From: Sipunculus nudus
Lineage: Eukaryota; Annelida; Sipuncula; Golfingiida; Sipunculidae
Length of the DNA: 64,000 bases
Direction: 5' to 3'
Assembly (NCBI GenBank): GCA_026874595.1
Contig: CM049319.1
Location: forward strand, 16,149,601-16,213,600
Part shown: one piece after another, positions 32,251 through 63,200 of the stretch
Layout: every line of letters begins with the position of its first letter
Position numbering within the stretch: position 1 is the stretch's first letter
Notes under the pieces: model-generated
What the model was told of the DNA's origin: nothing
Databases searched by the model: none
What the model saw: the letters and a program-made list of their open reading frames with translations, nothing else
Made by a program: the position numbers and the translations under genes

Positions 32251-34139
32251 TAAGTTAATATCCTTCATAAACATCAGCCAATAAAAGCGTTCTGTGTTTA
32301 CATGTACAGTAACTGTAAACATGATGTCAAAAATAGATATATCCTAACCAGGAAAGTCATGGTAAAATTACGATAAAGAAAGTGATAACGGCAGGCCCAG
32401 CGATAGAGAAAAACAAATAAACACACCCTCTCTCTCTTTCACTCTCTGTTATTAAGACTTTATGCCTATGTTTGCATGCATACAAAAATAAAACATATAT
32501 CAACACTATTTGTCACTTAAGTGACTGTCCCTTGCGGACTGTATAAAAACTGTGAAGGCTGAATGGTCAAGTCGGTTCCGCAGGTTATCCAAAACCCCAT
32601 TCACATGCAGACTTTTACTCACGTAATTATTTTTGTAGAGTAAATTTACATCTGTAAGTAAAATTCTACTCAGACTAATTTACTTAGTGTTCACATGTCA
32701 TTAAGGTCCTGTATGCACAATGAAGTTATCATTATTTATTTTATGATATAAAAATATTCATACAGGGTCGTTTGTTTAGAATTTATACTGTTCTTCCACT
32801 AGGTCCCGTGAAAATCATATATGTAAAAAACATTAACATAAAAATACATATGATCATATACATACATATATACACATTAAATATGTCAGACGTAAAATGA
32901 TATTAACAGAACCATGCATATTGTGAACACATTAAATAAGCATAAAACCTTGCATTCCCTGCGAATCTTGTGTGAATGAAGGAACAGGTGTTTTTTAAGT
33001 TACAATGCAAGTAATTAGGTTACAATAAACCCTATAAACACGCCATTTTAAGTAAACACAAGCCCAAAGACCAAAAGCTCATGCGTGAATATTTCCTGTA
33101 TGATGATACTATAAAGGCAAGAATTATTCTATTTCATACAGGAAACTTACTGACATTTAGTAATATATTTCGGTTGCTTACCTGTAGAGAATTCGTAAAG
33201 GAAATGGGGACATGAATCTCCAACAACGTTGCACAGTTTGTAAATTTTAAATGCCATCTAGGATTCGTGACAGTTTGCAATTCCCCTACAGCTGCGAAGA
33301 CTTCTGAATGCTCAGGTTTTACAAATACACCTTTAACAGTTTTGATCAAATAGTTTGACTGATGACAGAGATATTTATGTAATTTTCTTATGTATGATGA
33401 TCACACTGTAATGACTGTTTAGAGCTGAATATAGACAACATTCCTATTAAAATACTATGAAATGCAGCCTATCCACAGAAACGGAAAATGGAATGGTCTG
33501 ACCACGAAATGGTTACTCTAGTCCGAACTCGAGTCCATTTTTTTAGGGACTGGGACTCAAAGATTCTGGACTCGGATTTGTACTTGGACTCGGAATTATA
33601 AAGGACTCGTGAAATCAGACTGAGTCTTTCTCGAGTCCGTACCTCTATCACATACTATAAAGGCTTAAATACATGAGCGAACAACCAACAGAATATCAGG
33701 CATACAAAATTAGACTATATTTACCAAACTTAAATCTGGCATGGGAAGCTAAAGGTAATTTATCATTCAAGTAAAGAGCCGGTATAAAGTGACTTAAAAA
33801 TACACATGCTAATCTAAAATGTCCATTTAAATTTCTTTTTAAAAGGAGATGTATATCACAGTTGTCCTCGGCTTTTAAGTACGTAACTCGGACTCGAAGA
33901 AGGTGGACTTGGACTCGAGCCTCAAGGACTCGGACTTGGATATACTAGAGTAACAAACTAGTTCAACGGCACCAGGCATAAATACAAAATAATCTTCCTG
34001 ATAAACATATTTCCTTTCCAACAGTGGCGTGAATTTGTTTTTAAGGTAAAGGTGATGACTCGCAGGCGAGGGAGGGGCCATTTCTTTGTTTAAATCGATA
34101 AACACCATCATTCCCCCAATAATATAGGGGAATTTATAT

Positions 34140-34579
34140 TGTTACGGAACCTAATATAACAGATAGATTACGTATGCGTGATGAACACAAATTTTGTAAT
34201 GGAGATAAAAACAAATTAGATTCTGTAACACTAGGCAGCGGGAAACGTCTAGGGGAATGAATAAAGAAGTCAGTGGTTTTTTGTTAACAAATAACTATAA
34301 TTTATTCTTAAAACAACCCTAACAATACAATACACTAAATCAATACAATTATACAGTAAAACAGCGGTATACCAACAAGTCAATACAATCACATAGAAAA
34401 TAATGTGCAAAGTACCTGGATACCAACACCATCACAACGATAACTCCTTTAAATGTAATCTCTCGGAGGATGACAGTCCAGTGTAAAGCTCTTGCAATAA
34501 TCCAGAAAGTAAATTGAAGTCCAAATGCATAAAATCCAGGAGAAAGTCTTTGAAACTCTATGATTGCCGCATTCGCAAT

Positions 34580-34634: not shown

Positions 34635-35240
34635 TATATCCCTTTATTGTCGCCCCTGCTTTCTAAAAAAATTAGATCCGTGTCCCACAAATGTGAACAA
34701 CATTAATTTTTACGTGCTGAAACATGACGAAAAGCTTAAGGGAAGCTACTTGAAGCCAAAAAAGTCAAGTCGAAATTTGTATTCTAAGCGTTGGGCTGTA
34801 TTAAAGAAAACCCCTTTGTGTCGCAAGAAACCAGAACCGATCCAGAGAGTGTGTGAGTGGGGGGGGGGGGGGGGGGCCTAAAACTAAGATTCCTTAGGTA
34901 CGGAATGCGGATACATGGGCTGCATCGGACATGAATCAATGGTGCACTGATCATGAAATCGATTTCATGCTAATTAGTTCCATGCACGTGATCAAACTCG
35001 TGATCAAACACCGGTTCCTGATTCACTGAACCACGGGCCTATCCTAACATTTTGTAAGACCGCTCGTGTTTTCCACAAGTCCCCGAACATGCGTTGATAA
35101 ACTGTAGCTTGTGTGGCTTTTAATAAATCTTGACAGCCCTGTTGGACACAGCACTGATAAGAAGTGATTGACTGATTTCACTGAGTAACGCTAGAACAAC
35201 GACATCAGTATAAGGACACACTGTACTTACCATTTCAACA

Positions 35241-35416
35241 ATGTTTCTCATTGCCTTAATGTATCTTATGTACGGGTGTGCCGGCTACAACTTGGACATA
35301 GACAATCCAGCCATCCTTAAAATTGATGGAACGCGTTACCAAGGTAACCCTGGAGATGTTCAAAGCTGCTACTTTGGATTTTCTCTGGCTGGGTATAAAG
35401 ATGGCGGCAAAACATG
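35241..35416 (+). CDS. Integrin alpha first coding exon, copy A
   Basis: Encodes the signal peptide and the first blade up to DGGKTW, 58 codons plus 2 nt, donor ATG|GTAGGA. An in-frame TAA 33 nt upstream of the ATG fixes this start. It matches copy B at all but 7 of 176 bases, with four amino-acid differences (M7I, L18F, N36H, G56C). It is 19 kb from exon 2 and would act as an alternative first exon, or be silent. Confidence 0.85.
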
Positions 35417-35839
35417 GTAGGACTTACATAAACTGTTTGATTTGTTTCTCGGTTCGACACGTGTCGGTTTTGAACAGGCATCATATTTACAACTAACAAT
35501 TTTATCTTTGTGTTATTACGTATAAGTTTTATAAAGGCATGCCATGCAGTATCTACAAATAAAAAAAAATTATTCTGTGTTTACAGTATCAGTATTCAGT
35601 TTTCAACAAGAAAGACAGAGTAGCGAAAAAAAAACACGTTCGAGGTATTGGCATGAAGTTTAATTTTTGTCCACTAAAAAGTGCATTACTGTTACTCGGT
35701 GCTTAAAATAGTGTACCTTTAAAAAGATTTTTTATATGTTACAAAATCATGATAAAATGAATGAAGCATTCGAAATATGTATTCAATCAGAAAGAAAACT
35801 GTACGAGTTGTAAATATTGCATACTTTATATTGATTATA

Positions 35840-35886
<47 letters not shown>

Positions 35887-38800
35887 TTTTATTCATATCT
35901 TTTATATGTATTCCCTAACGCACGAGACAATTGTTAGGGTTTGCACTAGTACGTCGATAGAGTAGCAGTCAGCATATGAACGTATTACTGCAAGTGACGT
36001 TAGATGTGTAATAAATTATATATAATGAAAATCCCTAGATGATTAATGTATAATATCAATGTCAATGTACCTTCATATTACATGTGTTACTTTACTTTTG
36101 ATAAGTCTCCTACTTTTTAGCAAGCGGGGAAGATGTAATCACCCACCTTCTGAACTGTTAAGAATAGTTTATAAATAAAATAAACAAATAATATATATAT
36201 ATATAATATATATAGGAAATAGCGCCCTCCCTCGCCATCTCAAGATATCTCCAGATTTGCCCCGGAATAATATTTTCTTCGTCCATGCTCCGCAATAATG
36301 AAAAATCCTCTGAAATTTATCGCAAAAATTCAGTGATATTGTGTGGGGGAAGACAAACAGAGACGAATTGGGAATATCCAAATTGAAATTCATTGATACC
36401 TTTTGGAGACAATGTGTGGACAAACAAATGCGGACAAAAAAGGAATGACTTGGGTTAGATGGATACGCATCAAGATCCTCCCAAGAAAGTTCGGTAATAG
36501 TCCAATGGTTCTTTTTTTACATAAAACTATACGAATTCTGTTTTGATTCATTTGGTGTTCCAAAACAACAAACACCTTACCGCTGAGTCCATACAGTTAT
36601 AGAGATGGCTAAAGGTACATAAACCTTTGCAACAATATTTGCATTATCTCACGGTATTATATCATTCTGGTTCAATACAAAAATTTCCGGAAAAAAACAT
36701 CCCGGCACAAAGATTTACTATCTTAAGTTTACCTGATTAATACGTTAATATATGTAAAACATTCCATGTATGTCTGTATACCATAACAAAACTGTATGAC
36801 CAGAGGTCCGATCATGTGCATAGGCGACAATCCCCAAACAAGAAAAAATGAAAGAAGAAAAACCGAAAAAGCTTGAAAAATCTTGATTCATGAGGTGGCG
36901 TGCCTGCTATTTTTATGTTATGCATTAATGATAGCCCGGTGCAAGTTCATTCCCACTTGAGTACATCAGTAAGCACAACGGTTTTAGAACGTGATATTGG
37001 TAGACACCATAACATTGAAAGGAGAAAACACTATACTTTAGGAATATATTCAACATGCCATGGCATGTATGTGAAAAGGCCCCTTAAAGTTTTTAGAACT
37101 GTGAGGTGAGATGCCAAAATACTCGGCGACCATCTCTGGTGTTTAATTACATCAGCGATGTATAAAACACATGCATTGGCCTGTTTCCTAAGTGTATTTA
37201 AGCCCTACAGCCTTTTCATTATGGTAAATATTTTAAATGTGGTTTGTATATTTAAGGATAAGTGCAAGTGTTATGTGTTAACATGTACAGTTGTCATGAT
37301 GTCTAAAATATACCATAGATATCCACTAACCAGGAAAATTGACCTCAAAACCAGATAAATTATGGTCCGCCCTTTTAGCCTAATTCTGCTAATGAGCCTC
37401 CAATACGCTCCAACACAGATCGCCTTCCATGCCCCTGGTTGTCACGTTACAAAGGTCAATGCCATATCTCTGTTTGTGAGTGATGAAAAAATCGCAGTCA
37501 TTGTGAAATGTTTGGCCATTTTTTATTATTTGTCTCAAATGAATTTTGTGCCAGGTAAGACATTATTATTCACTAGGTAGCCGGCGGAATGACTCCTGCA
37601 ACCTTTGGCCTAGAACTTTTAATACTGTCTCCTTTGTATAAAAATATATCCCGGAAAACATTCCGACAGAGGTACTGGTGCAGACTACAGGTGTTCTGTT
37701 TGGAAGAGTATCCCAAATTATGCAAATTTCGCGCTTGTGGGATGATTGACCGTTCGCTTTGCCAATGGTAACTTGATTGGTTGCTCGCAAGTGCTCTGCT
37801 CATGATTATTCATTGAATGAAAATGCGATAAAGGTCACATAGAGTTAATGGATAGGTCAATAACGATAATAAAGTGATAACGAATAACCCGACGACGAAG
37901 AAAAACAAAAAAAAAAACAAAACCAAATAAACACCCACACTCTTTCGTTCATTCTCTGTTATTAAGAATTAATGTCTATGTTTGCATACATACTGACGCA
38001 CGTACTCGTGAAATAAAACATATATCAACCCTATATGTCACGTATGTGACTGCCCCTTGGTGACTGTATAGAACCTGGGAAGGCTGGATGGTCAAGTGGG
38101 TTCCGAAGGTTATCTAAGCCCCATTCACATGCAGACATTTACACATGTAATTATTTTTGCAGAATAAATTTACACCTGTAAGTAAAATTCTGCTTGGAGT
38201 ATATTTACTTATAGTATTTACTTATGACTCTCATGTCATTAAGGTTCTGAATGCAAAAAAAATTATTAATGTATATTTTATAATTTCAATATATTTATAC
38301 AAGGTATAACTTGTTCAGAAGTCATTCTGTTCTTCCACTAGGCCCTGTGAAAATTATATATATGAAATACATTAACATTAAAATACATATGATAAGATAC
38401 ATACATATATACACATTAAATATGTCAGGCGTAAAATGATAATAGAATCATGCAAAATGTGAACATATGAAGCATAAAACATTGCTTACCCTTCAAATCT
38501 TGTGTGAACGATGGAACAGGTGTTTTAAAGTTACTATGCAAGTAATAAGGTTACAATAAACCATTGAAACACGCCATTCTAAGTTAACAAATGCCTAAAG
38601 ACCAAAAGCTAATGCGTTAATATTTCCTGTATGATGATACTATAAAGGAAAGAATTATTTTCCTACAGGAAACTACTGACATTTAATAATTTAATTCGGT
38701 TGCTTATATACCTGTAGAGAATTCGTGTAGGAAATCGGGACATAACTCTCCAAAAACGTTACACAGTTTGTGAATTTTAAAATTAATTTAAAAAGGATTC

Positions 38801-40996
38801 ATAACAGTTGCAATTCCCCTACAGTAGCGAAGACTGCTATATTCTGAGGTTTACAAGTATACCTTTGGCAGTTTTGATCAAATAGTTTGACGGATGACAT
38901 GCAAAGATATTTATGTTATTTTCTGATGTATGATAATCACAACAGAATATAAGGCATACAGAATTAGACTCTATTTACCAAACTTAAATCTGCAAGGCAT
39001 GGGGAGCTAAATGTAATTTATCATTCAAGTGACTTAAAAATACACTTGATAATCTAAATTGTCCATTTAAATTTCTTGTTAAAAGGAGATGTCTATCGCA
39101 CTAGTCCTCGGCTTTTAAGTAGGCCTACGTAACTCAGACTCGAAGAAGGTGGATTTAGACTCGAACCTCAAGGACTCGGACTTATGTATAACAGAGTAAC
39201 AAACTAGTTCATCCGCGGCACCAGGCATAAATACAAAATAACAAAAGGTCTTACTGATAAACATATTTCCTTTCCTACTATGGTGTGAATTTATTTTCAA
39301 GGTTAGGGTGATAACCTGCAGGCGAGGGAGGGGAAATTTTTTGTTTAAATCTGTCAACACCGCACATTTTCCCATATATATATATTAGAATAAATTTAAA
39401 ACTGGGCCAGCCCAGATCAAAATTTTTTTATTTGGACCGGTCCAGATCAAAATTCTAATCTGGGCCAGACCAGTTTTAAACTGGACCAGCCCAGATCAAA
39501 ATTTTGATTTGGGCCGGTCCAGATTAAAATCCTGTGGTGAAGACTTAAGGATTTAAATCTGGTCTGGACTGATTTTAAACTGGGCTGGCCCAGATTAGAA
39601 TTTGGGATCTGGCCTGGTTAAGTTTATTATCCTGTGGTGGACTGATTTTAAACTGGGCCTAACCAGATCAGAATCCTAATCTAATCTTAGGCTAGCTTGA
39701 TTTTTATCATCTTAAATCAGATAATACAGTAAACATTTATTCCAGATACACCATTTTGAAGGGCACAAAACACATAATGAACAAGATCATTTAAAATATT
39801 TTAGTGAGGAAAAAGCTAATGAACAAATGTGATGTGCTTCTTTTGTTTCATCTATTCTTCAAGCATACAAGTTCACATTTAAACTTCACTTATACCAACT
39901 ACCATAATTAATTATGGTAGAATACAGTTTAGAATATGTATCAGTTCTGAGACATCTACTTGACTTAATATCAAAATTTTCAACTTAACTGAGATAATTT
40001 TCTGTTCTGAATATCAAATTTCATGTGTAATATTAAATATATACATGCATAATTAAATACCAGCTTTACCCATTTTTAAGTGAACAAAAGTAATTTATCA
40101 GTCTTGATGATCATTTGGGTGAGCAGCATGACATTTTGCCCTAACATGGGGCCAGGGAGAGGTTTGTGATACCATTTCTGTAATTTTTAATAGCAGAAAA
40201 TAAACAGCTGAGAAAATGATATGATTGTTGTCATTTGTCAGTCTCAAAAAAAGAGGTAAACATGAGTGAAAATTGGATTTAGAATTTTAATTCAGAGGGT
40301 GACAAACATGGTGGAGTTTTCATGACTTTGGAGTTAATAACTTAAAAAAAGCTAATCTATTAACTGATAACTAATGTAAATTGAAGATAGTTAAAAGTTG
40401 TATGACTTATAAATGTGTGCACAACAGAAAATAAGTGTTGGTTTTCTTGAAATGTTAGATGATAGTGTCCTTTTAGAATTAGATTGATTAAGTCCGTTTT
40501 ACTGTTTTTAGTTCAGTCTTCTTGTGAAAGGCATGATGTTTTTCATCTTCTCCTCCCCTTTCAACGTTCTGGATATTTAGGTTGATTATAACAACTGTTA
40601 TTTTTACAATATCCGTTTTCATTAATATTGCATAGATAAAACTGATGTTGTAGATGGCTAAGTCCCATTCTTATTCTCGTATGATTTATTGCAGCTGTAT
40701 CCCCTGCCTGTGCTGTAATGTAACCCTCTCTGTGGGTATAATGAATGTTTAAATGCCTTTTTTTTTAATGTCCCAATGTGGGCACAGGTTATTTATAGTG
40801 ATTGTGAATGTAAAACTGTAACCAATAACCTTAATACCAGCTCTGTATATAAACCTCAAAACGTGGTTATAAAGAAAACGAACAGTCTATGGGATCGCCG
40901 TTTTCAGGTTTAATTTTATTAATATATAACTCTGAAGAAAAACAACACTGTAAATTTACAACAGTCTGATGCGACCCGATTATCAGGTGAATGTGG

Positions 40997-41038
<42 letters not shown>

Positions 41039-41381
41039 GTTTATATTTATTCATCGGATTATTAAAAATAGGTGCTCTATGCTACAGTTCTGATTCACTC
41101 CAACCCCTTGAAGGTTAATGGACGCCACCGCACTGTATGTTTGGTCTATATTATTCCATCTGTTTCTGCGTATAAAAGCATAGAGTGCGTGACGCATGCA
41201 TTTATTTTCTGTTCAACACTCGGCTACCATTGGCCTGACAATGTTTACCCATTATTTGTGGGTGCATAATATTAGATGAGGTCCTCTTTCGTGACCCAAA
41301 AAAAGCGCCTGCTAAACAAAAGAAGAGGTTTATATTAGAGAGCATGAAATCACATGGTATACATGTAATATGTACGATATT

Positions 41382-41450
<69 letters not shown>

Positions 41451-44400
41451 GAGGCCAAGATTAGAATCTGGCCCAATTTAAAATTGGACCAGCCCAGATC
41501 AAAATTTTGATTTGGACCGGCCCAGATCAAAATTCTAATCTGGGCAAGACCAGTTTTAAAACTGGGCCAGCCCAGATTAAAATTTTGATCTGGGCTGGTC
41601 CAAATTAAAATCCTGTAGTGAAGACTTCAGAATTTAAATCTGGTCCGGAATGATTTTAAACTGTGCTGGCCCAGATTAGAATTTTGATCTGGGCTGGTTA
41701 AGTTTACAGTCCTGTCGTGGACTGATTTTAATCTGGCCCTTACCAGATCAGTACGATAATCTAATCTTAGGCTAGCTTGATTTTTATAACCTTAAATCAG
41801 ATAATAAAGTAAACATTAATTCCAGATACACCATTTTGAAGGGCACAAAACATAATGAACAAGATCATTTAAAATATTTTAGTAAGGAAAAAGCTAACGA
41901 ACAAATGTAATGTGCTTCTTTGGTTTCATCTATTCTTCAAGCATACAAGGTCACATTTGAACTTCACCTATACCAACTACCATAATTAATCACAGTTTAG
42001 AATATGTGTCAGCACAACCTTTGACAATGCTAATGTTCGCTGATGATATTGTTTGTTTTGGAGACACAGTTGGAAGATTACAGAATCAAATTGATAAACT
42101 TGAATATTTTTGTAACCGTTATGGAATGAAGTTGAATGTGGACAAAACTAAAGTTGTTGTATTTAGAAATGGGGGGACGTTAAAGAAATATGAAAAATGG
42201 TATTATAAAGGAAGAAAGCTTGAAGTAGTCAATAGTTATAGGTATTTAGGAGGGGTATTTACTTCTTGTCTGAAATGGGTAGAAATGGAAAAACATCTTG
42301 TGTGTCAAGCAAATAAAACTGTTTTAATGATAAGAAAATTCATTTCTGATAATAAATATATTACTGTAAAAGAATCATTTTCTTTATTTGATAAGATGGT
42401 TGTACCTGTACTTTCATATGGCAGTGAATTGTGGGGTTACAAAAAACAAGATAAAATAGAACAGGTCCACAATAAATTTTGTAAATACATACTTGGGATT
42501 TACTCTTCTTCACCAAATGCTGCAGCACTTGGTGAGTGTGGAAGGTTTTCTCTGAAAATCAGATTTATGTTAAAATGTATTTCTTATTGGGTTAAATTAC
42601 TAAGAATGGAAAATTATAGGTACCCTAAGCGTTTATATTCTAAATTACATAGGCTAGATGAATTAGGAAAGTATACGTGGGCAACAAGGGTAAAAAATAT
42701 ATTATTTTCAATCGGATTTGGATATACATGGATATTTCAAGATGTAGGTAATATTAATATATTTCTGTCAGGTTTCAAACAAAGGTTGCATGATAATGAA
42801 AGACAAGAATGGACAGCTAACATAGAAAATAATGGAAGATTAAAAACATATGCTATCTTTAAAAGCTTATTAAACACAGAATTATATTTATCAGCAGTTC
42901 CAAATAAAAGATATAGAATTTGTTTAGCAAGACTTAGAACATCATCACATAGCTTAGAAGTAGAAGTTGGTCGCCACAAGAAAATAGCCTGGGAAGAGAG
43001 ATGTTGTAAATTTTGTCTTAAACATGGAGAATCATATATTGAAGATGAGTTCCATTTTGTCATTAAATGTCCTTTATATATTTCATTAAGAGAAAAATAT
43101 CTGTCTGAATTTAAAGATATGTCTTTCGTTTCATTAATGTCCACAACAAATTATGTCACAATTAATAAGCTTTCAGCATTTGTATATTTTGCATTTGTTA
43201 AAAGAGAGTCAATTCTAAATGATTCTTTGAACTAGTAAGTGAACAATTTTATGTATATTATATTTTATGTATATATTAATATTCATATTTTATGTTGTTA
43301 TGAAATTTATTCTATGTAATTACCATTAACTTTAATCATTTTGTGAAACACAAATAGTTACCTGATAAAATTACATTGTGTATTTATTCAGTTGATAAAA
43401 TTGTTATTTCTGTTAATATTTTATTAATGATAACTGTGTATTTTTGAAAACTGTATTCATTTAATTGTTTATTTATTAATTATTTATTCTTATCATTTAT
43501 TGTTTTTTTTTTTTTTTCACGTGACCATGTATTATGTATTATGTATTTTGTATGTTTATATGTTGGATATATGGGCCTGAGGCCTTCATTTCCAGAATAA
43601 AGATATATATATATATATACACATTAAATATGTCAGGCGTAAAATGATAATAGAATCATGCAAAATGTGAACATATGAAGCATAAAACATTGCTTACCCT
43701 TCAAATCTTGTGTGAACGATGAAACAGGTGTTTTTAAGTTACTATGAAAGTAATAAGGTTACAATGAACCATTGAAACACGCCATTTTAAGTAAACAAAT
43801 GCCTAAAGACCAAAAGCTAATGCGTGAATATTTCCTGTATGATGATACTATAAAGGAAAGAATTATTTTCCTACAGGAAACTACTGACATTTAATAATAT
43901 AATTCGGTTGCTTATATACCTGTAGAGAATTCGTGTAGAAAATGGGGACATAACTCTCCAAAAACGTTACATAGTTTGTGAATTTTAAAATTAATTTAAA
44001 AAGGATTCATAACATTTGTAATTCCCCTACAGTAGCGAATACTGCTATATTCTGAGGTTTACAAGTATACCTTTGACAGTTTTGATCAAATAGTTTGACG
44101 GATGACATGCAGAGATATTTATGTTATTTTCTGATGTATGATAATCACAACAGAATATAAGGCATACAGAATTAGACAATATTCACCAAACTTAAATCTG
44201 CATGGCATGGGGAGCTAAAGGTAATTTATCATTCAAGTGACTTAAAAATACACTTGATAATCTAAATTGTCCATTTAAATTTCTTTTTAAAAGGAGATGT
44301 CTATCGCACTAGTCCTCGGCTTTTAAGTAGGCCTACGTAACTCAGACTCGAAGAAGGTGGATTTAGACTCGAACCTCAAGGACTCGGACTTATGTATAAC

Positions 44401-44587
44401 AGAGTAACAAACTAGTTCATCCGCGGCACCAGGCATAAATACAAAATAACAAAAGGTCTTACTGATAAACATATTTCCTTTCCTACTATGGTGTGAAATT
44501 ATATTTAAGGTTAGGGTGATAACCTGCAGGCAAGGGAGGGGCATTTTTTTGTTTAAATCTGTCAACACCGCACATTTTCCCCTATAT

Positions 44588-44684
<97 letters not shown>

Positions 44685-47071
44685 TATTGTCGCCACTGCT
44701 TTCCAAGAAATTTAGATTCATGTCCTATAAATGTGTACAACATTAATTTTATGTGCTGAATCATGACGAAAAGCTTAAGGGAAGTTACTTGAAGCCATAA
44801 AATCAAGTCGGAATTTGTATATTCGAAGAGCTGGGCTGCGTTTAAAGAGAACCTCTTTGTGTGGCAAGAAACCAGAAGCGACTCCATGCAGGGTGTGTGT
44901 CGGGGGGGGGGGGGGGGGATGGGGCTGGAAACACTTAAAACTAAGATTCCTTAGGTACGGAATGCGGATTGCGGGATACGGAATGCGTATAAAATCGGTT
45001 TTGACTAAATAAATAAGGTGAGATTCCTTATTCACGGATCCGGCATACCGAATGTGTATTTTCATGTAGCGATTTCTGAAGGTTCCGGGTGTGTTCCAGG
45101 GGCAACACATAGAAACCATGCATGGCGCCATGTAGGGTCATTGGAAATCTCTCAACACGCATTCTGCATGCAGCATTCCGTACATAAGGAATCTTGGCTT
45201 AACACAATTCGTCCTCACAGAAATTAAAAAAGTCGTTGAGGTATGCTTCTATCCATTGTGCCCTAACATATATGCATTATATGCAATATTTAAACGTTGT
45301 GTTTGCTTAATTCATATATAAAGATCATAAAAATAGATAATACATTTTAGATTCGTGTATTGTACATATACAGCGAGTTTGAAGAAAGTACAGTTTAAAC
45401 TTTGTCAAGTTTATTTAGTATTTATTTTGAAATCCACTCTTCCCTGTTTCACATATAAAAAGTTCAGAATGCATTAAATTATTAAAAACATATAAAGGTG
45501 AACTAGATTAACTCCTAAATAATTATTTTTCCTAAGAGGTTACCCTAACCCTGTATAAATCTCATCAAATTCATTTTATGAATATCTGAGTGAAGTTTCC
45601 AAAAATCCAACAAAGTAACCAACCAAGACAAATACATAATACCCCTGGTGCAAGGACGGTAATGATAACCGTCGCTAAAAACAGTAACCGAAATAAAAAA
45701 ACCCGGGTCCCCTCAAAGATACATGGGATGCATCGGACATGAATCACTGGTGCACCGATCATGAAATCGATTTCATGCTAATTAGTTCCATGCATGTGAT
45801 CAAACACCTGTGCCTGATTCACGGAACCATGGACCTATCCTAACATACTGTGAGACCGCTCGCGTTTTCTACATGTCCCCGAGCATGCGTTGAGAAACTG
45901 CAGCTTGTGTGGCTTTGAATAAATCTTGACAGCCCTGTTGGACACAGCGCTGATAAGAAGTGATTAGATGATATCACTGAGTAACGCTAGAACAACATCA
46001 GTAAAAGGACACACTGTACTTACCATTTCAACAATGTTTCTCATTGCCTTAATTTATCTTATGTACGGGTGTGCCGGCTACAACTTTGACATAGACAATC
46101 CGGCCATCCTTAAAATTGATGGCACGCGTTACCAAGGTCACCCTGGAGATGTTCAGAGCTGCTACTTTGGATTTTCTCTGGCTGGGTATAAAGATGGCTG
46201 CAAAACATGGTAGGACTTACATAAACTGTTTGACTTGTTTCTGGGTTCGACACGTATCGGTTTTGAACAGGCATCATATTTACTATTATGTTATTACGTA
46301 TAAGTTTTATAAAGGCATGCCATGCAGTATCTACAAATAAAAAAAATTATTTTTTGATTACAGTTTCAGTATTCAGTTTTCAACAAGAAAGACAGAGTAG
46401 CGAAAAAAAAAACACACACACACACACGTTCGAGGTATTGCCATGAAGTTTAATTTTTGTCAACTAAAAAGTGCATTACAGTTACTGGGTGCTTAAAATA
46501 GTGTACCTTTAAAAATAAAACGTTTTTATATGTTACAAAATCATGGTAAAATGAATGAAGCATTCAGAAATATGTGAGTACGTGATAGAGTAGCTGTCTG
46601 CATATATGATCGTATTACTGCAAGTGACGTTAAATGTGTAATAAATTATATATATTGAAAATCCCTAGATGATTAATGTATAATATCAGTGTCAATGTAC
46701 CTTCATATTACATGTGTTACTTTACTTTTTATAAGCCTTTTGAAATCTCTGTGTATGACTTATAAATGTGTGCACAGCAGAAAATAAGTGTTGGTTTTCT
46801 TGAAATGTTAGATGATAGTGTCCTTTTAAAATTAGATTGATTAATTTTATCTACACTTTTATAGATATAATGTCGTTTATTGGTTTAGTAAAATAGGTAA
46901 TGTATATTAATGGATTATGTGCATGTTTTATCTAGCCTAAGTAATATTTAAATGTTTGTCTTAATTTTTATTTAATGAATATTTTTTCTCATAGTCATTT
47001 TTATGCAAATGCTTGCTTGTAATAGCGTTTTAGAGTACAACACTGTGGATTTTACGCTTTACAAAATAAAA

Positions 47072-47108
<37 letters not shown>

Positions 47109-47652
47109 TTATTATTATTAAGTCCGTTTTACTGTTTTTAGTTCAGTCTTCTTGTGAAAGGCATGATGTTTTTCAGCTTCTCCTCCCCTTTCAACGGTGT
47201 ATTTTGGACATTTTAGAGAATAATGTTCTGGATCTTTAGGTTGATTATAACAACTGTTATTTTTACAATATCCGTTTTCATTAATATTGCATAGACAAAA
47301 CTGATGTTGTAGATGGCTAAGTCCCATTCTCATTCTCGTATGATTTATTGCAGCTGTATCCCCTGTCGTGCTGTAATGTAACCTTCTCTATGGGTATAAT
47401 GAATGTTTAAATGCCTTTTTTTAAATGTCCCAATGTGGGCACAGGTTATTTATAGTGAATGTGAAAGTAACTCTGTAACCAATAACCTTAATACCAGCTC
47501 TGTATGTAAACCTCAAAACGTGGTTATAAAGAAAACGAACAGTCTATGGGATCGCCGTTTTCAGGTTTAATTTTATTAATATATAACTCTGAAGAAAAAC
47601 AACACTGTAAATTCACAACAGTCTGATGCGACCCGATTATCAGGTGAATGTG

Positions 47653-47711
<59 letters not shown>

Positions 47712-48050
47712 GTTTATATTTATTCATCGGATTATTAAAAATAGGTGCTCTATCCTACAGTTCTGAATCACTCCAACCCCTTGAAGGTTAATGGACGCCA
47801 CCGCACTGCATGCTTGGTCTATTATTATTCCATCTGTTTCTGCGTATAAAAGGCATATAGTGCGTGACGCATGCATTTATTTTCTGTTCAACACTCGGCT
47901 ACCATTGGCCTGACAATGTTTACTCATTAATTGTTGGTGCATAATATTAGATGAGGTCCTCTTTCGTGACCCAAACAAGCGCCTGCTAAACAAAAGAAGA
48001 GGTTTATATTAAAGAGCATGAAAATACATGGTATACATGTAATATGTACG

Positions 48051-48102
<52 letters not shown>

Positions 48103-50329: not shown

Positions 50330-51165
50330 CATAAGATAAATGTCTATGGCAAGTACCTGCGCCAATATATATATTATGCAAAATATCCACTAGCCCCCCC
50401 CCCCCCCCCACTTGCAAAATCCTGGATCCGCCCCTGATAACATAACATAACATAAGATTACATAAGATCAGATAAGATAACATTTATTAGACTTCAGTTT
50501 TTACGCTTTATAAAATAAATTATTGTAAATATTGTAAGCGAATACCTGTGAATATTTTTATTAACAAGTCTCAGCAAGATCCCCTGTACATGAGGTCTTT
50601 TATTCACGGGGATTTTTATTTTCGCAATAATTTAACCCTACATTTTGTGCTTGTTTTTGTTTTCCAAAAATAATTTAACAAAAGAAAGAAAACAAAGAAA
50701 TCGAAAGGGGAGGTGTACAGACAATTGTGTGTTATGTACCATCACGGTATCCTGATATGATTATCAGATCAGGTCCGGTGTCATCAGCTGATCCAGGGCA
50801 GAGTTATGGGCTAACCTGAGGTCTCATAGTGATAAACTTCCTGGTCATACAATACAGTGGTAGCAGCCTTGAAAATCAAGGGTTTATCAAATTTGTATTT
50901 GATATTGATTTACAATTTGGTTGCATTGATTGTATTTTTATTTATAATATAAATAAATTTAAATAAATTTAAAACGTACTGCGGCCAGCAGGAAATAAAA
51001 AAGTTGGTGTTAGAATAGATGTTCCCCGATAATCATTCAACTAGAATTTGAGGATTTGGGCGTGGTTCAAAAGAGCGTTATTTATCTGTAAACATTGCCG
51101 ATACAAACCCTCTGGCCATCAAACTCTCTCCGCTGATAGAATGTTAACAAATACATATAGTGTCT

Positions 51166-51222
<57 letters not shown>

Positions 51223-52657
51223 AATTACGATTATCCCGAATTCCAAAATGTCTTTATTGATCTTTGTTTCAGGAAATCAATGTCCGTAACATATCTGTTG
51301 TACTACTTAATATGTTACAGGTGCTCTTTTTATTATGTGACACTGGCGTAACTCCTGTTGTGGCACTCGTGTCTGGCCGCGTGTTACATTCTATGTTTTA
51401 TCCGTACTGGTTGAACTCTCGTTGTCATGTAAGCCTTGGGTTTTCACGCCTGGTCGTGGGCCACGTTATGACCCTGGTGTGTGGGGATACACACGGCTAT
51501 GTTTTTCTCGATAGTTCCTGAAATGCGTGTTTACTGTAGGAACCTTAAGACTGTTCGAGAAGTGGAAAATTTTCGGCTTGAGGTGTGAAGGTATATAAAG
51601 GGGTTGTGTTTTTTAGAGCCAGAGAGCAGAAAAGATTCCAGCGGACGCTGAAGCGTGTGTCAGATTCTAGGACCTTATCCGACTAATGCGGCAATTATAG
51701 ATTTTCAAAGACTTTCCCCTGGATTTTATGCATTTGGACTTCAATTTACCTACTGGGTTGTTGAAAGAACTTTCCACTGGACTTTCATTCTCCGAGAGTA
51801 TACATTTAGGGAACTTATCGTGGTGACGGTGTTGGTAACCAGGTACTGTTCACATTATTTTCTATGTGATTGTATTGACTCGTTACTGTACCGCTGTTCT
51901 ACTGTATAATTGTATTGATTTAGTGTATTGTAATGATAGGGTTGTTTGAAGAATAAATTATAGTTATTTGTTAACAAAAAACCACTGACTTCTTTGTTCA
52001 TTCCCCTAGACATTTCACGCTGCCTAGTGTTACAGAATCTGATTTTTTTTTATCTCCATTACAAAATTTGTGTTCATCACGCATACGTGATCTGTTTATA
52101 TTAGGTTCCGTAACAAATACAATAAACTCATTTGATAACAACATGTTTTATTTTCTATTGTATGATGCTGATGCACATGGTGTATGATTATGTATGGTAG
52201 ATACCAAATGTGTCCTATAATAAATTAAACCTCTTGTCAAAACAACACAAGTTACTTGCGTTTCATATAACACAAGAATGTGTTACCAATAACAAAATAT
52301 CTTGTGTTATTTTAACACAAAAAATGTTACACCTAACAAATTTGTGTTACCTTTAACAATAGTATATCGTGTTAATTTAACACATGAGTGTTTTACCTTT
52401 ATCACAACCAGACGGTGTCATTATAACACAAGATTGTTTTACCTTAAACACAAGTATCTCGTGTTAATTTAACACAAGAATATGTTACGTTTTAACACGA
52501 GAGACTTGTGTTATATTTAAGCCAATCTTGTGTCAAAGTGGGTTTGACACTAGTTTTTGTGTTGTTTGAACACAAGCTGACGCTGTTCATATCAGACACA
52601 AGCACTTATTTCTGAGGAACACAAGTTTGTGTTATTTTTAACACAAGGGGATTAAGA

Positions 52658-52717
<60 letters not shown>

Positions 52718-54221
52718 GTCCAAGCGGTCCGGTCCATTTATTTAAAATATCATTGAAATAAATTAAAACCGTATTTTTTATTCTGCTTTTATTATACTTA
52801 TAAATATTTTTTTTAATTTATCATATTATTATTAATTTGTTCAAATATTTAATTTATCATATTATTGTAAGTCAACTGAGCTTTTGTGATCGTTCACCGT
52901 CCGACGTCCGTCCGTTCATCTGTCTGTTTAGCTGTCCGTCTGTCTGTTCGACTAGCACGTTTGGACACCGATGGACCTAGACACCTGTAACTGAATATCC
53001 CGGGAGCTCAATAAAAAATCTCCACGAAAACCGGAAATTAGGTCACTGTCACCTGTATCCTCCGAGCTATGGGGCTCTCAAGTACATCCCCCCCCGCCCC
53101 AAGAATAATTAGAAATTTGATACAAAACCTCAAGTATATTGATAATTAATGCACGGATTGCCCTTAATCTGGTCTTGAATATTGAAAGTGAGAAGGGTTG
53201 TAAGTTCCAAAAGACTGGTGGCGCCACTTACATTATTTCAAATTTCATGATTTTTCCCCTGTTTTTGAGACTGTCAAATAACAGCAGTTATATCAGTTTC
53301 TCGTCTGTGGTTTCATCTGGTGTCCTGAAACCTGGTCTGTTTATTGATTATGACTAGTTTCTTCAATTCCTGAAGACTAGTGGCGCTATCTGTATTTTTT
53401 TTTTCATTTTTTTACCAATGTTTTCCTGTATTTTGAGACTGCTAAATTATCATGATACTATCCGATTTGCAGCTATGATTTCATCTAGTGTCCTGAAACC
53501 TCGTGTGTTATTAGGCCCCGCTTGAATGAGCGGATGCCGTATAGTAATCACTCTGTCGCCTGTCCGTCTGTTCGTCTTTCTATGTCCTTCAAATTTATTT
53601 CCTGATGATAACTCCAGTTTGGACAGACATATAAATTTCAATTTGAGTTATATATAACCCACCTCTAACGCAAGAACTCTATTGATTTTTGGTCATGAGG
53701 TCAAAGGTCAAGGTCACAGCTTTGACCCACTTATTTAGAATGATTATAGATGCATCTTTTCATCCCAAACCTTCCATCTGGCACAAATAGCTGACCTGCC
53801 AATAGGGGAAGAACTTGATTGATATTGAGGTCACAAAGTCAAAGGTCAAGGTCACAGCAGCCATCTGTATACATATTTGTTTCTGAATGGTAACTCCAGT
53901 TCGGATTAACATATTGGTTTCAAACTTGATTTATATATTGCCCACCAATAAAGTAAGATACCTTTTTATTTTAGGGTCATGAGGTTAACGGCCAAGGTCA
54001 CAGGGCAGAAGGCGTTATTCAGTATTATGTCAAATCACAGTCTGAATCATGATTTTGGCTGAACCAGATCTTGATCAGGGTTTGGACTGGTCTGAATCCT
54101 GAATGGGATTTGGTCTGGACGTTATAAAAATATTCTTATAATCTATTTCAGCTGAGCGCCGTGACCCACAGGTCCCTTGTGTAATTTGTAATTTGTCTCT
54201 TTCATTATTATTATTATTATA

Positions 54222-54271
<50 letters not shown>

Positions 54272-57200
54272 CCCCTTGCAACTAAGATCCAGGAAGGGGT
54301 ACAGTAACAGTCAATTCTGAGGTCACGAGGTCAAAGGTCTAGGCCACGGGACCCACTTCTTCAAAAAGCTTATGGACCCATTTAAGCCAAACCGTTTGAT
54401 TAAAACCTTTCAACTGTCACATATAGCTCGCCAACCCAAGGATGAAAAACCCTATTGAGTTCGAGGTCACAAGGTCAAAGGTCAAGGTCACAGAGCTGCC
54501 TTCCTCATTTTTACACGGTGTAATACACTCAGTATCATAATGCTCCCCTGTGAGGTGATGTTCCACTTTGTCCTTGTTATTATTATTATTATTATTATTA
54601 TATTAAATGTGCTGATTTTGAACATTTCTAGATGATTTACTGATTATTTTTTTGGTGCTACCCTTATCCATATACCTTTTTGAGTAAGAATTTTAAAAGC
54701 AAAGCAAGCAAGCAACCAATATTATACAGATACAAACATAATACATTTTAATCTGTTAATTGATTTTCAAATCGTTATCCATAGAAATTATGCGTAAAGC
54801 CCGTTTTCTACATAATGAGAACATTGGTCCTCAAAATACTCCGTATTTTTCCTTCATCTTTCATGTTTTTCAGGCTGCTTGTCGGGGCACCTAAGGCCAC
54901 GCCATCATACTCCTACCGTAAAAATCCTAGAGATGTCGAATCCGGCGGGCTTTTCGCGTGTGACGTCAACAGTATAACGTCATCTAGTCAGCAGATTATG
55001 TGCAGAGAAGTGATTGCTGATGATCTAAGTAAGCCTTTGTTTTTTTAATCCAAGTTTTCACTGATCATTTTTTTCTGACATATCACATTGCTTGTGAGGC
55101 AACATAAAACTTGGCAGTATTTGAAATAATAAAAGAAATGAATATTAAAAACTTTGTTTATAATGCATTAATAGCAACTCCAACCCCTGTTATTATAGGC
55201 AATTTGAATGATTGAGCTAAAATATCCAGGCGTGTGACACATCATTCACATAAAGGGACAGTGGTTCAATCTGCACCCCTACCGAACGGGAAATATTATC
55301 TTACACTTGAAATTATATTAATTACGGTATACTTTAGTTTGCTGTCAACACTAGTCGCAAGAGCATACCTTAATTATGTCCCCTTGTATTGGTCCAGGCC
55401 GGTCATATATTGACCATAAATAAATGCATTTCTGAAACCAATGGACGGGGTTTCCAGAAACTCGACCTCATAACAGGGTCCCATGTGAACTGGTGTCTAA
55501 CCGATTCGGTGTGACCTCTGACATATTTCATATGTGCGTCTCTTCTAGGTAAAAAATCACACATATCTCAAGAGCGGTTTAACATATTGGCCTGGGATAT
55601 CGCATGACCTCAGATCCTAAGACAGATTTATCTCGTATAAAAGACTGGTTGCGCCACCTTTACAAGTTTTTGCATGGCGTCCATATGTACGACTGTTTCT
55701 GGTAAAAATCATCACAGGAGTGGTTTGATGTATCAAACTGGAATTTTGCATGTCCATGGGATAGCTTTCCCTTGAGAGAGTTAAATAGCAGCTTAATACC
55801 TTTATTTAGACTAGCCAGTTATGATATTTTACCCACAAACTTTTCGGTGCCCCCTTCTTTAGGTGGAAATGAAGCCTGGTAATTGATTACCAGATAGCGT
55901 GACAAGTTTACAAGATCAAGACAGATTAAGAACTGATAAAACCTCCGACAAACCCTTTTGAACAACAAGGGTTCCTTTACGGAGATAGGAAATGGCTCGC
56001 AACCATGCAACAAAGCCAGATGCAAATCACGGGCCCAAATTAATAACCAAGGGAGAAAGCGTACATATCATCAACCACAGTCATAAAGAACAGACACAGT
56101 ATAACGGTGAATCCCATGATCATGCCAGCACCTGGAGTGCGATATCAAAAGTCATAACAAGATCATGAAGAGCAACATACTCACTCTTGCCAATTGGTAA
56201 TCAATCACCATGCTTTATTTCCAGATGGGGGGGGGGGGGGGGGCATGTACCTGAAAACTTGTCGGGAACACATCCCCACCAGCTAGTCTAAATAATGGTA
56301 GCAAACTACATATATAAAGACTAGCATGGCAATTAAAATCTTACACATGACCAGTGCTGCCACCTATAACCGTTTCAATGTCTGGTTGAGGTTGGACACG
56401 TTTCATCAAGATATTTTGAATTGTATAAGATCCTGGATATTGTTAATCTCTTACACAGGCCTGAAGTCTGGCATCTCCTACAATCTTTTATAAGTGGCAT
56501 CCATCCTTGCATGTCTGTTGACTGGTTAAACGTACTGACATGAATGTCTGGCTATATATCTTGGATATACCTACATAAGACTGGTAGTGCCATCTAAAAC
56601 CACCTGTTCCTTGTATCCAAAAATGCACTTATGGGTCAATATCTTGGTCTGAAATGTTGTACGCCCATTGGTCTTCCATTACTTTATCACAAACACAAGA
56701 CAGGTAGCGACATATACAATCATATTTTGTATGGCGTTCTTTTGTGCGTCTTTTTTTTTGTCATATGAAATTCATATGTACCACATTCACATTCATGTGG
56801 ATTGGGAGTAGATAGGGATGACAAGAAACAAGATATTTATGAAAGCTGGTTTTGCCAATATCTTGGGATATTTTGACAGCTCATATAACAGAAATTTCGG
56901 GGACTCCCAAGTAAAGACCAACACGTAGTCCATACTTCTGTGTTACACGTAATCGCCGGTCGACTGCCGTAGATCCACTTAGTATATGATTTTTAGATAG
57001 ATCATTTTCCGGTCAGTATTTTAGCACAATCCATGTTAATACGGTACGTGGTATCACTTCTGAAGATTTTTATCAATGTTTTCCTACAGAAGAGAAGAAT
57101 AACTGGACAAATTTGGTCAGAAACAGATCTCATGAGTATCTCGGTGGGTCGCTCACGACGCCACCTAGCGGCGAGGGGATCATAGTGGTAAGTCAATTAA

Positions 57201-60200
57201 GGACATTTATAGAGTTGTCAACCCAGGTAAGCATGATCAGATCTAAGTCGCAAATGTGTCAGTTGAGCAACTGATGTTATTTTATATCATCTCCCTGATT
57301 TTTAGCCGAGCAATGTGTAAAATAAATCAAAACATATGCCATAACACAAATTAAAACAAATACTTCGATAGGCGAACCTTTTATAAATAAAATCTAACAA
57401 CAAACGTATTTAGTATTATGGATTTGAAATCGACATCTATAAAAGTTCTGAAAAAATCCCCAGACGTATATCTATCAATTAGCGGAATTCAGTGCACACG
57501 GTATTCCTTGGTATTCAGTCCATCCGATGCAGTTGCAATGCAGTTGCAAGGTCTCTGTGTTCGCGTCGCAAGCAATGTTCACATCCCCTTCGTCTGGGTC
57601 AAAATAGGAATTGACTCATCGATTTGATGATCGGATTTTTTTCTGGTACCCGACGGTGTATTCACACCGGCATCTTAGTCCCATGGCAAAGTCGGTCAGA
57701 CACTGTTGTTTGGACCCCCTTCTTTGGTCATAAAGCGAAAAATAGTGACCTGTGGTCCGCGTCTACGATGTACTTCTACCCGTAGAGGAAATATCTTTAC
57801 GGCAACGGTTGTCCCACATGTTTCCTTTTTTTAGCCCAGCATACTGAAAGTCATCTCAACTGTAGCGATCACTCGTTGTCCGTCGTCCGTCTGTCTGTCC
57901 GTCTGTCTGTCCGTTAACAGGGCACACATCGTAACCGTTAGACCTTGAATTTTCTAACTTGACATAAGGTCTCTGTAACTTATACCCTTTGAGCTATGGG
58001 GCTTGTCTGTACCGCCCAGAAAAAAATACAAATTTGATACAAAAGGTCGAGTATCTGAATAACGAATGCATTGATCATCATGATTCTTGCATGTATATTA
58101 ATCACTGAGTATTACATCAGTTCCCGCAGACTTGTGGAGCTCCCTGTATTTTTCGAATTTTCGCCCCTTTTCGTCTTGAATTTTGAAACCTTCAAAGAGG
58201 CGGCCATCCGTTAACAGGGCACAAAAAATAACCATAGCCGTTGAATCAAGACTCTTCTTACTTGACAGAGAGGTCTATGAAGTATCTCCATGGACATCTG
58301 AAATAAGGTCTCTGTTACCCATACCCTTCGAGCTGTGGGGCCCGTAAGTAACTTCCCCCCCCTAAAATAATAAAAATATTGAAACAAAAGATCCAGTGTC
58401 TGAATTACTAATGCATTGATCATCAAGATTCTTTGCATGCTCGTGATCATGGATTGTTTCATCAGTTCAGGTAGACTGGTATCGTCACCTGTATTTTCTT
58501 TTAAAATTTACGCATTTTTTCTCTATTTTTGAGACCTTCAAAGATTCGGTCATCCATTAACAGGACACAAATCGTAACCGTTGGAGCTAGAATCTTCTAA
58601 CGTGATAAATGGGAGGTTCATAAAATCTCTCCTTGGACCCCTGAAATAAGGTCTCTGTTGCCCATTTCCTTTGAGCTATGGGGCTCATAAGTACCCCCCC
58701 CCCCCCCCCCCAAGAATAATGGAAAATTTGATACAAAAGCTCCAAAATCTGAATAACTGATGCATTGATCGCCATGATCCCTTGCATTCATATTGATCAT
58801 GGACTGTTTTATCAATTCCTGCAGACTGGTGGTGCCACCAATTTTTTTTTTCGAATTATTACGCATTTTTTTCTCTAAATTTCATATCTTCAAAGAAGCG
58901 GTCGTCCATTTACAGGGCACAAATCATAACCGTTGAACCTAGAAACCTCTCAGTTGATGTACAGGGAGGTCCATGAAACTCTCCTTGAACACCTGCAATT
59001 AGGTCACGGTTACCCATATCCTCCGAGCTACTGGGCTCGAAAGTACCCCTAGAATGATTAATTTTTTTATACAAAAGCTCCAGTATCTGAATAATTAATG
59101 ATTTGATTGCCATGATCCTTTTCCATGTATATTGATCATGGAGCCTTTCATCATTTCCTGAAAACTGGTGGCGCCAGTCGATTATTTTCTCTATGTTTTT
59201 ACCTTTTTTTCTGCTTTTGAGACCTTCAGATGAAAAAGTCCGTCCGTTAATAGGGCACAAATCGTATCTGTCAGACTTAGAACCTTCTTACTGTATATTC
59301 AGGGAGGTCCTAGGCAAATCTCCTTGAAAACCTGAAATTAGGTCATAGTGACCTATATTGGCCAACTACAGGCTGAAAACACTATTGTGGGCACCCAGTC
59401 AGCCAGAAGGGGCACGAATTGTATCCGCTAGGCCAAGAATCTTCTAACATGACATCCAGGCAGGTCCTGGGTAATTCTGCATGGAAACCTGAAATTAGGT
59501 CATGTTGGCCTATAATTTGTGAACTATGGACCCAGAACATGATCTTAGCCCCCTGAAAATCAGATGGGCACAAATTGTATCTGCTAACCCTAAAATGTCT
59601 AAATATAATATACAGGGAAGTTTTGGGCAATCTCCATGGAAACCTGAAATAAGATCATAGGGACCTATATTTTGCGTGCTACCGGCCAGTACATCTAGGG
59701 CAATCTCATGGAAACCTGACATAAAGTCATGGTGACCTATATTTCTGGCAAAAATAAAAAAAACTATTGTCGGACCTAGAATCTTCTGTCTTGACATCCA
59801 GGGATGTCCTCAAAAAATGTGCATGGTCATTTTTAGCTCAGCTGACTGCATACAAAAAGGCTATATTTCATGGGAATTGCTGGACATATTATTATGAAAC
59901 GTTTTTTTCTTGTTGATTTTGAAAAACTTCAATATCTACAGTTGAATGGTGATTTCTACTACAAAATTTAGCATTCAGATGATAAAATTCCTTTTGTGAA
60001 TGTCTCAGCTGAGCGTCATGACCCAGGGTCTGTCCCCTTTTTAGCTCAGCTGACTGTAAGTCATCTGAGCTATACCGATCACTCTTTGTCCGTCGTCCGT
60101 CCGGCCGTCTGTCCATGAACAAGGCACAAATCGTAACCACTGGACCTGGAATCTTCTAACTTTACATCCAGTTAGGTCCATGAAAAATCTCCTTGGAAAC

Positions 60201-63200
60201 CTGGAATTACGTCTCTGTTAAACATATTTTTCAAGCTATGGGGCTTCGAAGTATCCCCCAGAATAATGAAAAATTTGATACAAAAGCTCAAGTATCTGAA
60301 CAACTAATGCATTGATCACCATGATTCTTTGCATGGATATTGATCGTGGAGTGTTTCATCAGTTTCTACAGACTGATGGCGCCATCTGTATTTTTTCGTT
60401 TTTAACGATTTTTTTTCTCTATTTTTGAGACCTCAAAAGATGCCGTCATCTGTTAACAGGGCACAAATTGTAACCGCTGGACCTGGAATTTTCTCACTTT
60501 ATATTCAGAGGGATCCATGAAATGTATTCTTGGAAACCTGGAATTGGGTCTGTTGTACCCATACTCTTTAAGCTATTGGGCTCCGAAGTAACATCAGAAT
60601 AATGAAAAATTTGATACAAAAGCTCGAGTATCTGAACAACTAATGCATTGATCACCATGATTCTTTGCATGGATATTCATCATGGAGTGTTTGATCAGTT
60701 TCTATTTTTGAGACTTTAAAATATGTGGTCATCTGTTAACAGGGCTCAAATCGTAACAACTAGACATAGAATCTTTTTACTTTACATCCAGAGAGGTACA
60801 TGAAGTCTCCATGGAAACCTGAAAATAGGTCTCTGTTACCCATATTCTCTGAGCTATTGGGCTAATAAACACCCCTCCCCCCCCATCATAATTAAAAATT
60901 TTGATACTAAAGCAGGGCAGAAATCATTAACATTTGACCTGGAATCTTCTAACCTAAAATCCAGGGAGGTCTATGAAAATCATCTTGGAAACGTGTATTT
61001 AGGTCTCTGTTAACCGTATTTTCTGAGCTATATGGCTTATAAATATAAGCACCCCTCAGAATAAATGAAAATTTGATACCAAAGTAGGGCAAAAACCATA
61101 ACCTTTGGGCCAAGGAACTTCTTACTTGACATCTTGAGAGTTCCTCAAAAGGTCTCCCCAGAAACCTAAAATCGGGTCACAGTGAACTATATTCTCAGAG
61201 TTTTGGGCTATGTTTGAGCACCCTAGAAATAATGCAAAATACACGCAAAAAAATTGCCAGATTCCTCATGAAAGGCTGGTTGGTTTGTCATCAGATTTGT
61301 TGTGCTTATGGGTCTTGATGAACACAAGCTAATATGCATGAACAATGATGCCACCTACATTACTTTAAATGGTTGTTTGTTCGGTTCGGTTGAGCGTCAT
61401 TACCCACGGGTCACTTTTGTTTAAGCCCACCGGCTTGTGTTTTGGCATAATCCTTTGTACATCTTCTGATTGACAGAGGTCAAACAGGGGCCAACCCCAA
61501 CTGAGGTGAGAGAAAAAGAGGGAAGTGACGTGCTAATTCAGAGTGAAAGTCGTTTTAGTGAACTTACCCCTCTGAAAAAAAAGAGTTTTTTTCTGAGTCG
61601 AGTTCGGGAACATAATCTATGTGTTCATTCTCTGGTGAAACAGAAGCGGGTTTCAGTTAGCCATGTAGTTCCGACATACACACGACTTCCGCTGCACTCT
61701 CTAGAAAGAGAGATTTTGCTACAGGAGATTTCCTTACTCGCATTTATTCATCCCAAGACCTATTGATGTATCTCATTATCATACGCTCGGTCGTGGTCGT
61801 ACATTATGGAGGAATACCCGTCAATATTATGCAGAAAATATGCTTCAAAACCAATTCAAGATCAAATCTTAATCATATTCTGCATCAAATGTATACAGAA
61901 ATTCACAGAATTCATTGAGGGTCTTTACAGCGCTTTGTAAGAAGATATATTTTTTCATCCTTGCTGGAAAGCTGCTGAAATGCCTTCATGCAGTCTCATT
62001 AGGCCCAATCCTTCGCAAGATGTCGGTTCTACTCAATACGAACCTCATCCTGATATGCACTGAAGCACTTGTGTATATCTCACATGCATGTGCTTACAAG
62101 ACATTACTCATTTCTTGATTTTCATGCATCATAACATCCATGTTTATGTAATTTGCTTTCAATCAATTCCCATTCTTCATATCTGACCGGACTGCATTAC
62201 CCTCTTCACTACATTTATAACCACGCCGCCGGTGTATGTAGAAGCCGCGGTGCATCGTGGGGTTCAGATTGAGTTGTCCATAAACCCTAAACTACAGAGT
62301 CATATTCTTGTGAGTTCGAGTCTGCGGAATGTGATGGACCCGTAATATCAACGCTGAGCATCTGAACCTCTCGTCCTGCAGCGAAATGAAGTCGCGGGGA
62401 CTATGCAGGGACTAGAGAGCCAAGCCGTCTTACAGCAGAAACTGTCCTGCAAAGCTGTTTTGATATGATACACGGTAGGCGCTATTTAAAGTAATGACAG
62501 CATGGAACGTTTGGATAGGCTTTATTTATTTAACACCTTGGTTATTCTTAGCTATCTCCGAACGGTTTTTATGTGTCCCTTCTTTTGGCATGAGCGACGA
62601 ACTGTCTCCTTGAATGGTCTGGCATAAAAAGATTGTAACGCATTAGTTTGTTCTGTGAAATGGCTTTATTGGCTTTTTTTCTCAACAATGTCTGGCTTTA
62701 AACACCTTTTTCTTGTTCACTTCGGAAGCCTTCAGACCATAGACCATCTCTTCTTTGCCATAGCCGTACATTCTGTGTCTGACGCAATTTATATTACTTG
62801 GTTGAATATCAACTCGTCCAGAATAGTGAACATTCCTTTCGGCGCAGCTTCATCATTGATAGCTGGAAGCTCTTGAACCGATTTATTTGGTGTCTGTCTC
62901 ATGTCGGGATAGTACTTGCATCGTTTCCGTTTGCTACAGTATGTACCGCTTGACAATGGTTGGCATGGTTATAGCTAGCGCTACACCACAGTACGGTGAG
63001 AGTCTACCATTTGGATCGTTGGACAGATCTGTCCAAAAACGTTTGGGCACATATCCTTTGTGTAGCAGATTTATTTATTTAGACTGAATAACACTACGAA
63101 AACTGATAACCTGGACTCAACCAAAAGCTTTCGTACTGGTCAAATTAATGTAACATAAGCCTTTATCCGAAGGCCTGAATCTTAAATCATCATCTTGTCA

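Follow-up and report, generated by a model that had tools for sequence, protein, structure and literature searches.

Why does an integrin alpha gene of the sipunculan Sipunculus nudus carry two near-identical first exons ahead of a single body? The question arises in a stretch of 64,000 nucleotides of contig CM049319.1 (C14:16149601-16213600, called the window throughout, its positions counted from the first letter), in which two copies of exon 1, here 1A and 1B, lie upstream of one exon 2. A preliminary description of this DNA had proposed that the gene may thereby produce two mature N-termini from two promoters. The answer that we find probable, with moderate confidence, is that the pair stems from a young, local and probably non-adaptive duplication of the 5' end, and that 1B is a passenger, silent or giving rise to a minor equivalent isoform, rather than a dedicated second N-terminus.

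The exons on which the question turns are the following:

35241..35416, forward strand: exon 1A, with start codon, putative signal peptide and first propeller strand.
46034..46209, forward strand: exon 1B, the second copy of exon 1, carrying F18 and C56.
54874..55028, forward strand: exon 2, the sole copy at the locus, its presumed end placed from a GTAAGC donor (54874-55027 served as the query in searches).

Both first exons start with ATG and hold an open frame of 58 codons plus TG, and the donor that follows them is the same (gtaggacttacata). With the acceptor before exon 2, TTTTTCAG, which was judged good, either copy restores W-LLVGAPKA in frame, and there are consequently two splice-compatible first exons, identical in phase and donor, for one exon 2. 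The first residues of exon 1 are a putative signal peptide, as in integrins generally. The copies differ at seven of 176 bases (offsets 20, 53, 68, 89, 105, 122 and 165), four of these differences being amino-acid changes from 1A to 1B (M7I, L18F, N36H and G56C). As aligned, their similarity is far beyond chance, and it reaches well outside the exon, over some 870 bp at 89% identity with gaps and then in further blocks on both sides. Searches of the window with blastn (word size 7) and tblastn revealed neither a degraded third exon 1 nor a second exon 2 between the copies; tblastn returned one chance-level match (E 0.71). The exon coordinates and difference counts of the preliminary description proved exact to the base, as did its statements that both copies are intact (ATG, open frame and donor in each), that they join exon 2 at 54874 in the same phase, and that 1B has Cys56 where 1A has Gly. 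What the predicted exons provide is the structural potential for alternative first exons from a duplicated 5' end.

That the gene encodes an integrin alpha subunit, also part of that description, is borne out mainly by what lies downstream. The product of exons 1A and 2 matches the N-terminus of integrin alpha-V with a whole-sequence E of 1.1e-4, weak when taken alone, and no Pfam model matched it. Beyond the window, an FG-GAP exon scores 31.4 bits against the Pfam FG-GAP model (cut-off 22.1), and phmmer against the PDB relates it to integrin alpha-4 with E 4e-15. In Pfam scans of the pieces L018, L019 and L020, each in its three forward frames, one FG-GAP match was above the cut-off and all other matches were below their own; a second FG-GAP match scored below it, and only some of the propeller blades were read. 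Two other pieces of the body gave integrin alpha-4 at E 0.0017 in one case and only an unrelated match (E 0.55) in the other. At C14:16247157 an exon encodes a tail, VGFFKREKKEEL, with GFFKR, the membrane-proximal motif of integrin alpha. Further propeller-like and leg-like reading frames beyond the window were judged by eye, the exon set being partly read; together with the FG-GAP exon and the GFFKR tail, they follow in order on the same strand. Exon 2, the FG-GAP exon, a leg exon (termed calf here) and the tail exon each have a single match at the locus, where two first exons thus precede one body; exon 1A and the tail exon lie about 62 kb apart. The best PDB matches of the gene are integrins alpha-4, alpha-IIb, alpha-5 and alpha-V, with which it shares the N-terminal strand, the FG-GAP repeat and the GFFKR tail; in contrast to them, it belongs to a local family, with about nine more bodies near 51 Mb on the same contig and extra loose 5' ends, and has a duplicated exon 1. 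As predicted from these matches, it is a real integrin alpha gene with one downstream body.

How the pair arose can be read from paralogs, for which we searched the whole genome assembly (1.43 Gb, 153 contigs). The closest are P1 (51.693 Mb) and P2 (51.802 Mb); exon 1 matches each of them once, and their first introns are colinear with the window. Positions 8307-8428 of P1 match the window twice, at 41207-41330 on the A side and at 47882-48004 on the B side, while 8961-9428 match it once, at 50524-50972; P2 behaves alike. Because P1 and P2 combine one exon 1 with a colinear intron, the single exon 1 is ancestral and the window locus locally duplicated. Homology that extends into the noncoding flanks, together with a single-copy ancestral state, marks this as a recent segmental duplication. 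The duplicated blocks, and a frame between the two units, are these:

32856..34106, forward strand: block X1, upstream of 1A.
38397..39398, forward strand: block X2, in the interval from 1A to 1B, sharing 96.4% identity with X3.
40399..41425, forward strand: first-intron block, copied at 46752-48099 with 2.2-2.9% substitutions.
41961..43235, forward strand: reverse-transcriptase frame between the units (RVT_1, E 1.2e-7), presumably of a retrotransposon.
43603..44606, forward strand: block X3, upstream of 1B.
46752..48099, forward strand: first-intron block as copied downstream of 1B, including 47882-48004.

Block X is present three times in the window. When 696 bases of it were searched genome-wide, the other matches among the 40 candidates scored, of 169, covered at most about 190 bases of the block ends and resembled dispersed repeats. 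Substitution divergence between the A and B units is uneven and declines along their length: block X is 10-12% diverged and the block after it 9.4%, the sequence before the ATG stands at 7.9% and the exon itself at 4.0%, and behind the exon the value is first 5.2-5.6% and then, farther on, 2.2-2.9%. X2 and X3 are 3.6% apart. The differences hold up statistically, both for blocks X and U versus the near intron (P 0.0003) and for near versus far intron (P 0.02). To account for this pattern, local duplication must have occurred at least twice, or the copies must have undergone conversion. The divergence of about 3% that X2-X3 and the 40399-41425 block have in common would fit a third unit whose exon 1 was lost; positions 36108 and 40399, which nearly coincide with adjacent sites on the B side (46738 and 46752), would fit an insertion and not a lost unit.

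It might be objected that the pair is an assembly artefact, in which divergent alleles were set in tandem, and the copies are indeed colinear with large indels, as in false duplications. We nonetheless regard this as improbable, given that divergence between A and B varies by block from about 2-3% to 12%, unlike a single allelic pair, that a third copy of block X sits between the units, and that the window contains no N and lies inside a 68 Mb contig. Beside the exon, substitutions amount to 5-8%, a very high level if the copies were alleles.

In the scenario that we favor, one integrin alpha gene would have undergone local duplication of its 5' end, from the upstream region through exon 1 into the beginning of intron 1, in a repeat-rich place with three copies of block X. 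Exon 1A would be the copy that selection maintained. Exon 1B would now lie within intron 1 of the A transcript and, being a first exon without an acceptor, would be skipped in splicing. Should its copied promoter remain active, 1B would join exon 2 and yield an almost identical protein at some level. The amino-acid changes in B resemble the drift of a redundant copy.

The scenario draws first on the way in which the two exons have changed. Polarised against P1 and P2, the seven differences divide into three silent changes on the A lineage and four amino-acid changes on the B lineage; two of the silent changes in A are safe, while offset 68 is uncertain, so that A has perhaps three and B perhaps one. 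Of 664 noncoding positions, 13 carry a change derived in A and 22 one derived in B; eight of the 43 differences are unpolarised. At its own noncoding rate, B would be expected to have acquired 4.4 amino-acid changes and shows four; for A, 2.6 would be expected and none is seen (P 0.074). A random change would disable the exon in approximately 6.5% of cases, and four would leave the frame intact with a probability of 0.76. The open frame of 1B is therefore little evidence of use, since four random substitutions leave the exon open in about 76% of cases. These comparisons, which involve few events, lean toward A being constrained and B showing no detected constraint.

The same evidence bears on a stronger form of the two-isoform idea of the preliminary description, that of two functional alternative first exons, each with its own promoter, giving usefully different N-termini (Phe18, His36 and Cys56). 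It would account for a start and donor kept intact in two open exons, for upstream sequence that was duplicated with motifs common to both copies, for the lack of any indel between the exons, and for a B lineage in which four changes alter the protein and at most one is silent. Set against it are the youth of the pair, the fact that amino-acid changes in B accumulated at the rate of the flanking noncoding sequence, and the state of the other copies in the family. Of 14 exon-1 matches, 12 are readable over codon 18, the copy at 66 Mb being left out; all 11 readable copies other than B have Leu at codon 18, and at codon 56 nine have Gly and two (L043 and L044) Asn, the truncated L045 also having Gly. 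Phe18 and Cys56 are thus found only in B. We consider usefully different N-termini unlikely on these sequence comparisons. What survives of the proposal is its structural part, two intact splice-compatible first exons each with duplicated upstream sequence; that the differences matter looks unlikely, with B changing at about the neutral rate and intactness expected by chance.

The upstream regions are duplicated as well, which makes two promoters structurally possible:

34910..35240, forward strand: upstream region of 1A, with a palindrome at 34952-34969 and a GATA-like site at 35154-35165; homology to P1 and P2 starts at 34908.
45619..46033, forward strand: upstream region of 1B, with the palindrome at 45760-45777 and the GATA-like site at 45950-45961.

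The palindrome, CATGAAATCGATTTCATG, is perfect over 18 bases and lies about 255-290 bp before each ATG, which makes it a candidate regulatory site. The second element, CTGATAAGAAGT, common to A, B, P1 and P2, is a GATA-like site. Both patterns occur in the window at those sites only, with 0.00 and 0.02 matches, respectively, expected by chance; the A and B copies of each go back to one duplication and so are not independent. P1 and P2 keep exactly 16 bases of the palindrome and 12 of the GATA-like site, and neither exact element is kept in the more distant copies c507 and c418. Both promoters may still be working, and lack of time would explain the retention equally well.

Several observations weigh against 1B as a mere passenger of the duplication. 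There is not one indel between 1A and 1B, and the neighboring blocks have several. The palindrome and the GATA-like site are retained upstream of both copies, and of the upstream sequence common with P1 and P2, B retains about 100 bp more than A. The asymmetry between the exons rests on seven events and depends on offset 68, where P1, P2 and the diverged L043 have the base of B, and the more distant full copies c507, c418, c386, c285 and those at 51167567 and 51236512 that of A: Fisher's test gives 0.029 with this change assigned to A, 0.067 with it dropped and 0.14 with it assigned to B. P1 and P2 themselves differ by five amino-acid changes to one silent change, which implies that the pattern in B is not unusual for recent copies of this family; the ratio could also reflect diversification. 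Finally, the surplus of 5' exons in the family, to which we return below, could in part mean that other exons are harder to detect. The roles of the copies might even be reversed, 1B being the main first exon now, as the one nearest exon 2 and with more ancestral upstream sequence (homology to P1 and P2 from 45619-45620, compared with only 34908 in A), and 1A a relic. With no amino-acid change in A and four in B, we give this reading little credence.

The wider family puts the duplication of a 5' end in context. Exon 1 has 14 matches genome-wide, all on one contig (two here, 11 at 51.17-51.80 Mb and one at 66.48 Mb), and exon 2 has 15 (one here, 12 in the 51 Mb cluster and two near 66 Mb). The calf exon has 11 (one here, nine in the cluster and one near 66 Mb); the FG-GAP and tail exons have 13 and 17, of which 11 each fall in the same three places, again as one, nine and one, the remainder being two weak matches elsewhere for the former and, for the latter, six weak matches to its 3' part on other contigs. 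Such counts may be lower bounds, and exons vary in length and divergence. The excess of 5' exons, 14 and 15 compared with 11 for each body exon in these places, is therefore no more than suggestive that loose 5' ends recur in the family. In three 1-kb stretches (L038-L040) where spacing hinted at a missing partner exon, none was found. PF08441 was tried as a gene counter and rejected, its search of the whole genome giving one match on another contig and none here. A bolder reading is that the family repeatedly copies 5' ends (exon 1, at times together with exon 2) before shared bodies, and that cells vary the N-terminus by using more than one first exon for each body. The window pair would then be the youngest and simplest instance, 1B diversifying under positive selection; we hold this to be the least probable of the explanations considered here.

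The cluster itself, C14:51160000-51810000, holds about nine integrin alpha bodies on both strands, with more exon 1 and exon 2 matches (11 and 12) than body matches. Four of its exon 1 copies, at 51236512, 51285320, 51386033 and 51417912, have one and the same sequence, and the two at 51167567 and 51507301 likewise match each other exactly; at L045 (C14:51574450-51574900) exon 1 is truncated, with only its last 71 bases matching. Other repeats in the window include an inverted pair, 34139-34573 and 51685-52116 (90.6% identity over 435 columns), with relatives near exon 1 of P1 and P2; a dense local array at 14676-15621, with copies about 83-92% identical; and mutually similar repeats at 57828-61107, about 65-76% identical and related to 52967-53271.

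Tandem-duplicated alternative first exons are known from textbook systems, UGT1A and the clustered protocadherins, whose arrays are old, diverged and transcribed. As in these systems, more than one first exon, each with an upstream region of its own, can by prediction join one common body. In contrast to them, the predicted pair described here differs by only 4% in the exon, and no constraint on B was detected. Among integrins, the main text of a study of the Crassostrea gigas family (PMC7390872) contains nothing comparable to a duplicated first exon, with zero occurrences of tandem, duplicat, chromosom, exon and signal peptide. No description of such an integrin first-exon duplication was found in the titles and abstract openings of the papers listed by searches on integrin alpha expansion in molluscs and bivalves, integrin clusters, alternative first exons and exon tandem duplication.

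The locus illustrates, at an early stage, how an alternative first exon could arise: one in which an upstream region, a putative signal peptide and a donor were copied together before an unchanged body, and for which close paralogs with a single exon 1 give the ancestral state. If RNA turned out to use both exons, the fate of a duplicated first exon would be traceable from its start. For now, the pair serves chiefly as a record of birth and death within an invertebrate-like cluster of integrin alpha genes.

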